DNA of 64,000 bases from Sulfurimonas autotrophica DSM 16294 (GTDB lineage: Bacteria; Campylobacterota; Campylobacteria; Campylobacterales; Sulfurimonadaceae). The notes under the pieces were generated by a model. It had not been told where the DNA came from. It worked only from the letters and a program-made list of their open reading frames with translations, and did not search any database. The stretch lies in assembly GCF_000147355.1 (NCBI RefSeq), contig NC_014506.1, forward strand, positions 1,302,001 through 1,366,000, given 5' to 3'. Positions 55,437-57,865 of the stretch are shown one piece after another. Positions within the stretch are counted from its first letter, which is position 1, and every line of letters begins with the position of its first letter. Both the position numbers and the translations under genes were made by a program.

Positions 55437-56381
55437 ATGTCTGTATTAGATAATGTTGATGCTGCTACAAATCTGGCAAAAAATAATGAGTTGCAATTAT
55501 TAGTTTTCAAAGTTAGTGAAAAAGATGATTCTGCATTCTATGCGATAAATGTATTTAAGACCAGAGAAGTTGTAGAGTCAAAAAATCATTTTTTGACTCA
55601 AATACCTTCAGCCCATCCTCTTTTAGAAGGTACAATTATTTTACGTAATTTACAAATACCAATCTTGAATCTTCCAGCATGGTTAGATGTAACACTAAGC
55701 GAAGATGAAATCAATCACTCAAATATCTTAATTTGTGACTTTAACGGTATTATCATAGGTCTGAGAATTATGTCAGCGTATAGAGTTATTAAAAAGAACT
55801 GGAATGAAATGCATGCACCGGAGAGCTACAGACTCAAAGAAGATGGTGTTGTAATGAATGACACAAGACTTGAAGATGGAAGTTTATGCCTCATTTTAGA
55901 TTATGAAAAACTTCTCGCAGATGTCCTGCCCCAAGCACTTGTTGATGTTGACAAGGACACGGAGTTATTAAAAGAAATTACTATACCTGATAAACTAAAA
56001 TACGGAACCGTTCTTATTGCAGAAGACTCAAAAACTGCTCAAAGACATCTCATTCAACTTTTTCAAAAAGCAAATATCAATATAAAACTCTTTGACAATG
56101 GTAAAAAGCTTATAGACTATATCAGTGCACTGGGTGAAAAAGCAAGTGAAATACCGGCGATTATTACAGATATTGAAATGCCTGAAATGTCCGGATTTAC
56201 AGTTATACAAAAATTAAAAGCCATCCCTATAACAAGCAATATCCCAATTATAGTTAACAGTTCAATGACAGGTGAAAACAATAAAAGAGAAGCTGAAGGC
56301 TTAGGAGCAAGTGGTTTTATAGATAAAACAAAAAGTCATAATGTAATTCCGTTGATTGTTTCAGTAATGGACAAAGCTTAA
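55437..56381 (+). CDS. cheV: Chemotaxis coupling protein CheV
   Basis: This 314-aa protein has a CheW domain (about 15-160; FYAINVFKTREVVE, PSAHPLLEGTIILRNLQIPI) joined to a response-regulator receiver domain (about 190-312). The phosphoacceptor is D245 in ITDIEMPEMSGF; the acidic pair is in LIAEDSKTAQ and the conserved Lys is in GFIDKTKS. It couples chemoreceptors to CheA. AAGGG lies before the ATG. I saw no clear sigma-28 or sigma-54 promoter upstream. Confidence 0.94.
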   Translation: MSVLDNVDAATNLAKNNELQLLVFKVSEKDDSAFYAINVFKTREVVESKNHFLTQIPSAHPLLEGTIILRNLQIPILNLPAWLDVTLSEDEINHSNILICDFNGIIIGLRIMSAYRVIKKNWNEMHAPESYRLKEDGVVMNDTRLEDGSLCLILDYEKLLADVLPQALVDVDKDTELLKEITIPDKLKYGTVLIAEDSKTAQRHLIQLFQKANINIKLFDNGKKLIDYISALGEKASEIPAIITDIEMPEMSGFTVIQKLKAIPITSNIPIIVNSSMTGENNKREAEGLGASGFIDKTKSHNVIPLIVSVMDKA

Positions 56382-56432
56382 CTTTAAAAAATCAAATAAA
56401 AAATATTAATTTTAAAATAGAATACGACGAAT

Positions 56433-56531
56433 AAATTTAAAGAGTGGTGTAAGTGCTAGGCATTGACGAGGAAGCGGACATAAAGTACGTGACGAGGAGA
56501 TAACGACGCAATTGCGCCGCTATTTAAATTT
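56433..56531. other. GC-rich structured element between cheV and oadB (candidate RNA or repeat)
   Basis: About 79 bases (56442-56520) are roughly 53% G+C in a genome near 35%. The ends form a 15-bp stem: AAATTTAAAGAGTGG at 56433-56447 pairs with CCGCTATTTAAATTT at 56517-56531, with one G-A mismatch and one G-U pair. Inside, TGACGAGGA occurs twice, at 56464-56472 and 56490-56498 (26-nt period). The palindrome CGCAATTGCG at 56507-56516 forms a further hairpin. The right arm reaches the oadB stop codon. It is not a tRNA or a recognisable rRNA piece. It may be a structured 3' UTR, a small RNA or a dispersed repeat. The functional strand is unclear. Confidence 0.55.
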
Positions 56532-57865
56532 TACTGATACAGTGAGATTAAAACCCCAGCTGCTACGGCGGAACCTATCACACCCGCAACATTAGGACCC
56601 ATAGCATGCATTAAAAGCATATTAGTACGGTCATATTCCATACCAACCTTATTTGATACACGTGCTGCCATTGGAACTGCTGAAACTCCAGCTGAACCAA
56701 TTAACGGATTAATTTTATGACCAGGGAAAAGGTTCATAAGTTTTGCCATTAAAACACCTGCTGCAGTACCTACAGAGAATGCAATAATTCCAAGAACCAT
56801 AATAAAAAGAGTCTCTGGCACTAAAAATTGATCAGCTGCAAGTTTAGAACCGACACCAAGACCTAAGAAAATTGTTGTAATGTTAATAAGTGCATTTTGC
56901 AATGTATCATTTAAACGTTCAACAACACCTGATTCCTTTAAGAAATTACCGAACATAAATGCACCAATAAGCGGTGTAGATTCAGGTAACACCAAAATTG
57001 CCAGCATTAAAACTAAAACAGGGAAAACAAGTTTTTCCAAACGAGAAACATGACGCAGTGTAGTCATTCTCATTTTTCTCTCTTTTTCAGTCGTCAATGC
57101 TTTCATAATCGGAGGTTGAATAATTGGCACCATTGCCATATAACTATATGAAGCAACAGCAATTGCCCCTAATAGCTCAGGAGAAAGTTTTGTTGCAATA
57201 AAAATTGATGTCGGACCATCCGCACCACCGATAATTGAAATCGCAGATGCTTGTTTGAGTGTAAAGTCAACAAAACCATAATGTGCAAGAACAACGGCAC
57301 CTACAAGAGTACCAAAAATACCAAATTGTGCAGCACCGCCTAGCAGTGCCGTTTTAGGATTTGATAAAAGCGGACCAAAGTCAGTCATCGCACCGACACC
57401 CATAAATATTATAATAGGAAAAAGTTCGTTTGAAAGACCTGCCTGATAAATAACACCTAAAAATCCGTGAGGTCCTGCTATATCTGCTATGGGAATATTA
57501 GCTAACAACCCGCCAAAGGCAATCGGTAACAACAAGAGCGGTTCAAAGCCTTTAGCAATCGCAAGCCAAAAGAGCAAAAAAGTCACTAAAATCATAATCA
57601 CACGGCCAAGACCTTTGTGAAAATCACTCATCTGTTCTCCAGTTGCACTTAACTCATCTGCTCTTGGGCTTACAAGCGCGACAACACCAGTTGACTTTAA
57701 AAATCCTGTTATCATCTCACTGAAAGGCTTAGACTGATATGTTTCTTCTTGGTGTGCCGAAGCCTTAGTAGAAACCTGTTCGTGCTCTGAAGCTACAGCA
57801 TTGGCCGAAAAGGCAAATGCGAAAAGCATCATAGATGCAAGTAATTTAATTACAATATTTTTCAT
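56531..57865 (-). CDS. oadB: Sodium-pumping oxaloacetate decarboxylase, beta subunit
   Basis: This 444-aa membrane subunit couples decarboxylation of carboxybiotin to Na+ export. The conserved [10 protein letters not shown] has the key Asp at residue 216; about ten helices follow residue 85. An N-terminal signal-like helix ([11 protein letters not shown]) and a Ser/Glu-rich segment to about residue 80 precede the usual start of the family. The gene lies 4 nt after oadA. Its stop codon abuts the GC-rich structured element. Confidence 0.93.

Follow-up and report, generated by a model that had tools for sequence, protein, structure and literature searches.

A family of imperfect hairpins at gene edges in Sulfurimonas and related bacteria, with a possible role as a one-way transcription boundary

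Introduction

The window, that is the whole 64-kb stretch of DNA analysed here from a genome of 2,153,198 bp, carries a compact 102-bp element (56432-56533, + strand) between the convergent genes cheV (+ strand) and oadB (- strand). The first-pass annotation, made from the letters alone, had described it as a G+C-rich island with a closing stem and internal repeats and had suggested a structured RNA. The element is a member of a family of imperfect hairpins of ~85-140 nt, here termed rods, that mark gene edges.

Structure of the element

The element was delimited with two covariance models, scoring 82.5 bits (E 3e-16) with the broader model R2 and 102.6 bits with R1, which was built partly from the window copy itself. 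Its pairing was read from the predicted fold and from A1, an alignment of 25 near-complete copies that gives a rod of 32 pairs. The parts of the element and its neighbours are as follows.

55437..56381, + strand: cheV, the convergent neighbour, with CheW and receiver domains (PF01584, PF00072)
56432..56533, + strand (antisense to oadB): the whole element, a gene-edge rod, by covariance models R2 and R1
56433..56441, + strand: left arm of the outer stem, AAATTTAAA, pairing with 56523-56531 by the fold; outer pairs covary in A1
56443..56451, + strand: left arm of the closing stem, AGTGGTGTA, pairing with 56513-56521
56454..56456, + strand: left arm of the second stem, TGC, pairing with GCA at 56508-56510 (A1)
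56464..56472, + strand: first TGACGAGGA, the 5' side of a tandem-GA internal loop (A1 and window sequence)
56474..56479, + strand: 5' arm of the apical stem, GCGGAC, pairing with GTACGT at 56485-56490, here with one G.A
56490..56498, + strand: second TGACGAGGA, the 3' side of the tandem-GA internal loop (A1 and window sequence)
56501..56522, wobbles those of the oadB-sense strand: local hairpin TAACGACGCA / TGCGCCGCTA around a 10-bp palindrome
56523..56531, + strand: right arm of the outer stem, TTTAAATTT, which is the foot of the rod and overlaps the oadB stop codon by one base
56531..57865, - strand: oadB, the anchor gene, encoding the beta subunit of a Na+-transporting oxaloacetate decarboxylase (PF03977, E 2e-153)

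The + strand folds into a single long hairpin of -30.5 kcal/mol (z = -3.72), which none of 200 shuffled sequences equalled; the minus strand reaches -17.5 kcal/mol (z = -2.04), equalled by 10 of 200 shuffles. What the first-pass annotation had picked out by inspection is confirmed in part. The near-perfect enclosing stem is present as AAATTTAAA.GAGTGGTGTA / TGCGCCGCT.ATTTAAATTT; it contains a single G.A mismatch, and its three U.G pairs are nearly invariant in A1 (25, 23 and 23 of 25 copies). In the 64 kb, the duplicated 9-mer TGACGAGGA has no copies beyond the two at 56464 and 56490 (spacing 26 nt), the palindrome CGCAATTGCG at 56507-56516 is perfect over 10 bp, and the end of the element does touch the oadB stop codon (56531-56533), sharing with it the single base 56531. 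The two 9-mers oppose each other across the rod as both sides of one internal loop, in which GACGAGGA set against itself gives G.A, A.G, C-G, G.A, A.G, G-C, G.A and A.G, a pattern of tandem G.A pairs with single Watson-Crick pairs between them.

The proposed island of about 18 points in G+C content holds solely against the left flank (42.4% in the element, 22.2% in the left 99 nt, the end of cheV included), because the 100 nt of oadB on the right have 45% and because 11.7% of all 99-nt windows across the 64 kb (step 10 nt) are as rich as the element or richer. No tRNA or tmRNA was found in the window, and searches with Rfam 15, of the window at gathering cut-offs and of 56300-56700 at E 10, returned no match to the element.

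A covarying family

Both sequence checks proposed with the structured-RNA suggestion gave positive results. BLASTN found homologues in the own genome (one full copy) and in the same genus, with matches at E <= 0.01 in 57 of 100 genomes, many of which cover the AT-rich flank alone. In A1, the tool counted compensatory change at 19 of 32 pairs and a script of our own at 20, mainly in the apical and outer stems; four of the six pairs of the apical stem, whose motif may resemble helix 25 of 23S rRNA, change on both sides. With homologues and abundant compensatory changes, the suggestion is borne out in part, as a prediction from comparative sequence.

Model R1 was built from 25 of 30 BLASTN loci, L026, L029, L037, L039 and L043 being excluded as partial. 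At E <= 0.01 it finds the family in 97 of 135 Sulfurimonas genomes, with 1-8 copies each, and in 13 of 200 genomes (7 of 47 genera) of a sample of the phylum; six of these 13 genomes belong to the own genus and several of the others are weak. The broader model R2 takes in related rods, many of them with a longer middle stem, and at E <= 0.1 finds matches in 19 of 29 chosen genomes, including 14 in G252, six in G262 and three in G174. These three genomes belong to family f7, which we take to be Arcobacteraceae; R2 was empty or marginal in four of five genomes of another f7 genus and in families f2, f3 and f8. The element is a multi-copy repeat, as had been suspected, with four R1 and nine R2 matches in the window genome, of which two and seven, respectively, are diverged relatives and not near copies.

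The window copy matched neither plasmids nor phages, and an exact pattern of the element found no match in viral contigs. One match of the exact pattern in Campylobacter concisus (L148), lying inside a coding gene, was rejected as chance. A short core pattern was, for most genomes, hardly commoner than its reversed control, and the matches outside Sulfurimonadaceae and f7 were, by eye, mostly coding-like. No description of the rod family was found in the literature searched. A genome-wide study of ncRNAs in Arcobacter sp. L reports novel intergenic motifs that are mostly rare, genus-confined and unnamed (PMC6429828), and the rod family may overlap with them.

Position relative to genes

Rods recur at the same few genes across genomes, antisense to them and close to the stop codon. 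Two sets of 81 and 100 matches were merged into 120 distinct places and, after removal of opposite-strand doubles, into 114 copies, of which 105 have an antisense open reading frame in reach and 100 also a left neighbour, which makes them testable; the nine without an anchor are contig ends, one copy in a 16S-23S spacer and L081-L083. The foot lies within -9 to +21 nt of the antisense stop codon in 95 of the 100 testable copies, a range that was picked after the data had been seen, and uniform placement in the gap would give 34.4 (maximum of 53 in 20,000 simulations). The positional rule had no part in building the models, which used sequence and fold only. The far side of the rod is loose, with a median distance of 85 nt.

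Among the 114 copies, the most frequent anchors are ilvC (29 copies, 26 of them at exactly -9 nt), an mrp/NUBPL-type gene (19) and oadB (16), followed by a Pfam-less gene of ~169 aa (10), purH (7), a sensor-like gene (5), ffh, cheV and acnB (2 each) and single others. Names were assigned by Pfam for ilvC, purH, mrp, oadB, ffh, cheV and fabH and by eye for the rest. The other strong R1 copy of the window genome stands on ilvC, and weaker copies include one on fabH and one in a 16S-23S spacer beside a tRNA. The window element itself belongs to the oadB edge, antisense to oadB and on its stop codon, like its relatives elsewhere.

Convergent neighbours flank 71 of the 95 placed copies and co-directional neighbours the other 24, a ratio for which the seven gene ends of the window that face gaps of at least 100 nt are too few to serve as a baseline. 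In some convergent pairs, both genes have a rod of their own. A 51-nt mini rod without the apical half (L061:1385-1435, - strand) was also seen on the end of cheV, opposite a full oadB rod.

The same polarity is seen in f7 at different genes, for 13 of 14 R2 matches in G252, four of six in G262 and three of three in G174, by our own reading with genes from our own ORF caller. The exceptions are L305, which lies inside a reading frame, and L309 and L312, which stand in sense orientation 85 and 27 nt before a gene start. Further weak or diverged matches that misfit the rule or are ambiguous include L204, L321 and L322 in G011, L202 and L326 in G068, L230, L232 and L330, and most of those in G188, G317 and G143.

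Related rods also adjoin the CCA end of genes for tRNA-Val, tRNA-Asp, tRNA-Ile and tRNA-Ala, again in antisense orientation. Two of these loci were confirmed by Rfam as 16S-23S spacers, and we take the remaining tRNA-Ile/Ala loci to be such spacers as well. The foot of this tRNA type is A-rich and has no U tract. Rods in sense orientation stand before tRNA 5' ends at L216, L212, L218, L295 and L325, some of them weak matches, and in one tRNA cluster (L212) the 5' ends of two rods face each other across 18 nt. Stated generally, so as to cover both 5' and 3' ends of tRNAs, rods mostly have their 3' foot directed at a gene edge.

The strand that folds

The strand antisense to the anchor is the better-folding one in all 25 copies of A1, all 27 aligned ilvC copies and all seven tRNA-Ile/Ala copies (59 of 59); among other loci, it is not the better one in L225, L314 and L331. 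Wobble pairs agree. Counted on the antisense strand, G.U and A.C pairs of the rod stand at 116:8, 99:3 and 44:6 in the three sets and, when columns with a wobble as their commonest pair are excluded, at 22:8, 8:3 and 9:3, which is weaker and in the same direction. The excess of G.U points to selection on the antisense strand. The local hairpin beside the stop codon is reversed, with G.U:A.C at 0:33 in the ilvC set (L074, one of 27 rows, being entered as zero) and 10:40 in A1, and selection may thus act on the gene-sense strand at this place. No single mechanism is at hand for both patterns.

Residence at orthologous sites

Similarity was compared for 84 of the 114 copies and averages 0.746 between copies at the same anchor in different genomes, 0.701 between different anchors in different genomes and 0.726 between different anchors within one genome, where the best of 29 pairs reaches 0.85. 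A recently moving element was rejected, since none of these 29 pairs is near-identical. Compensatory change has also occurred in place, at 10 of 32 pairs among the ilvC copies (27 of 29 aligned) and at 12 of 37 pairs among the seven rods behind tRNA-Ile/Ala. Two ilvC loci (L107 and L110) hold a hairpin next to the stop codon alone (CGGCGCATCTTTTGCGTCG type), which we read as a decayed remnant. In 18 ilvC genes followed by the main rod, a different rod or a remnant, the encoded proteins end alike (...N, mostly ...KN), which places the rod behind a finished gene. From these comparisons the rods look resident and functional, with occasional loss.

A possible one-way transcription boundary

The antisense strand forms a rod whose purine-rich internal loops are conserved and whose 3' foot rests on a stop codon or, in related members, on a tRNA end. 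We tentatively propose that the rod may act as a directional boundary against antisense transcription into housekeeping genes. Polymerase would enter from the intergenic side, at this locus from the convergent cheV or from a spurious promoter, and the rod RNA would be made just as polymerase reaches the gene. We infer that the rod, together with its AU-rich foot in the subfamily of the window, would then stop or release polymerase at the foot, perhaps assisted by a protein that reads the GA loops, and antisense RNA would be kept out of the anchor gene. There may be something to block: according to one review, ~46% of open reading frames in Helicobacter pylori have at least one antisense start, and housekeeping genes are included, with 28% of tRNAs and the leader regions of rRNA (PMC8322730).

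This proposal draws support from the covariation, which is also found in place at ilvC and tRNA-Ile/Ala, from the 95 of 100 placements and the equal polarity in f7, from the better fold and the G.U bias on one and the same strand, and from convergent pairs that can bear two rods, one per gene. It is weakened by the A-rich foot of the tRNA subfamily, by the sense rods before tRNAs, which would cut the tRNA/rRNA operon unless read through, and by the 24 of 95 copies with a co-directional neighbour. The gene-sense wobbles of the local hairpin (33 A.C and no G.U on the + strand), the weak and diverged matches that break the positional rule, the three loci in which the antisense strand is not the better-folded one and the blank terminator scan given below also tell against it.

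A more specific version would have a dedicated factor, in at least two Campylobacterota families, read the GA-loop rods made only by wrong-side polymerase and stop it at the gene edge, so that the rods would serve housekeeping genes, tRNAs and rRNA spacers as directional insulators; this is rather doubtful at present. If the boundary function is true, these bacteria would hold ready-made one-way transcription boundaries, and the long-standing question of how genes are shielded from pervasive antisense transcription could be addressed by removing a single 100-bp element. Should the mechanism be wrong, the rods still form a clearly delimited family of structured elements whose position follows a strong rule.

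Alternative explanations

Like intrinsic or bidirectional terminators, the rod is a hairpin that stands at the 3' end of a gene between AU-rich flanks, and an ordinary terminator common to convergent genes, unusually long and GA-rich, would suit the 71 of 95 copies that lie between such genes, the AU-rich flanks on both sides in the main subfamily and the local hairpin before the foot. A consensus scan, however, found no intrinsic terminator at 56432-56533 on either strand, where the foot CTATTTAAATTTTA is interrupted, and the rods differ in being ~100 nt long, in the conservation of their GA-rich loops, in the covariation of the apical stem and in their fixed polarity towards one gene. The apical half has no evident use in a terminator, yet it is conserved and covaries; a single rod would suffice for the two genes, yet paired rods exist; and the relatives at tRNA edges have no U tract. 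An ordinary terminator is on balance unlikely.

Action in the sense RNA, as a 3'-UTR element that governs stability or processing of the anchor mRNA, would account for the nearly fixed distance to the stop codon and for the sense-strand wobbles kept by the stop-adjacent hairpin (33 to 0 in the ilvC set), and the sense RNA is the one transcript whose production can be taken as certain. Taken whole, in contrast, the rod keeps the wobbles and GA loops of the other strand, the antisense strand being the better folded in every one of the 59 aligned copies, which leaves a 3'-UTR element improbable.

The conserved, RNA-like fold of the antisense strand would fit a small RNA that is transcribed from its own promoter and acts in trans or on the anchor gene. 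The tRNA-Val subfamily also overlaps an Rfam antisense RNA of H. pylori, HPnc0260 (RF02194). The 3' half of tRNA-Val, where these rods stand, is matched in antisense orientation by the model of this RNA, which has no match to the window element. At L216, two tRNA-Val copies score 61.0 and 60.8 bits with HPnc0260 (gathering cut-off 59), and five other rod-bearing tRNA-Val copies score 43.8-54.4 bits. Two copies at L327 behind which no rod was found still reach 38.1 and 39.2 bits, so the antisense tRNA part carries much of the score. At gathering cut-offs, nine loci besides that of the window element gave tRNA and HPnc0260 only. HPnc0260 is described as a NikR-repressed transcript divergent from ureA (PMC5385501). 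Against a small RNA, a scan of the window region found no promoter, the base-frequency profile of the 60 nt upstream of the rods has by eye no common -10, and the facing 5' ends of the two rods in the tRNA cluster leave scant room for promoters. A promoter-driven small RNA is accordingly a reading of low probability.

Mobility, either as folded single-stranded DNA or via an RNA copy, with the 3' end of the element joining gene edges, is also hard to credit. It would explain a strand-specific fold with many copies and a patchy distribution, a 3' end that is mostly at the joint, tRNA 5' and 3' ends included, and the two genomes with only a putative remnant behind ilvC. The missing near-identical copies (best 0.85 of 29 pairs), which also speak against a remnant of a MITE or insertion sequence, the compensatory change in place at one orthologous site and the blank searches of viral contigs (exact pattern) and of phages and plasmids (window copy) all stand against it, as do the transposase surveys. 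A TnpB guide-RNA scaffold, considered because it would explain a 3' end pointing at conserved genes, was rejected with TnpB over the cut-off in none of 25 genomes and one weak sub-threshold match (G062).

REP elements are imperfect hairpins, strand-specific and scattered over the genome, that often lie at gene 3' ends and sometimes form inverted pairs. Rods share these traits and differ from REP/RAYT systems in being longer, few per genome and fixed in orientation to the gene. The Y1_Tnp domain occurs in 15 of 25 genomes, and a REP/RAYT origin was rejected because the 17 loci searched around Y1 transposase genes, some of which are not RAYT-like, contained no rod at E <= 1, and because the rod-bearing genomes G101, G055, G032, G031, G317 and G174 have no Y1_Tnp at E <= 0.001. 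The seven RAYT-like genes (~170 aa; L341, L342 and L344-L348, e.g. L345:1710-2219) each lie, by eye, amid their own different GC-rich repeats, and a repeat finder reported inverted pairs in most of the five RAYT-like loci it was given.

Integron attC sites fold from the bottom strand, with the 3' end on a gene 3' end and the end boxes RYYYAAC / GTTRRRY. The likeness to rods lies in this geometry of the fold relative to the gene. Unlike attC, the rods have no core boxes at their ends, which by eye are of the AAATTTAAAGAG...CTATTTAAATTT type in the 25 aligned copies, and they are anchored to core genes in orthologous positions instead of to cassettes.

Variants of the rod

A rod subfamily without the CAAGGC/AACGNAG loop keeps the same apical GGAGC...GUGAC motif and was seen at the same ilvC edge in two genomes (L320 and L329) and behind an rplS-like gene (L316). 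Other palindromic repeats (GCGCTTCGCTCGCAATGAC; CCTGAATTTAATTCAGGGTCT) occur in the 60 nt upstream of rods at L050, L101 and L109. Finally, the apical half of five rods (L086:1501-1629, L087:1501-1638, L091:1501-1662, L093:1501-1633 and L119:7170-7307) carries a nested insert of similar, variable sequence (~GCCCTGAA...AAGTACTCTTGGGGT), which is a second small element within the rod.
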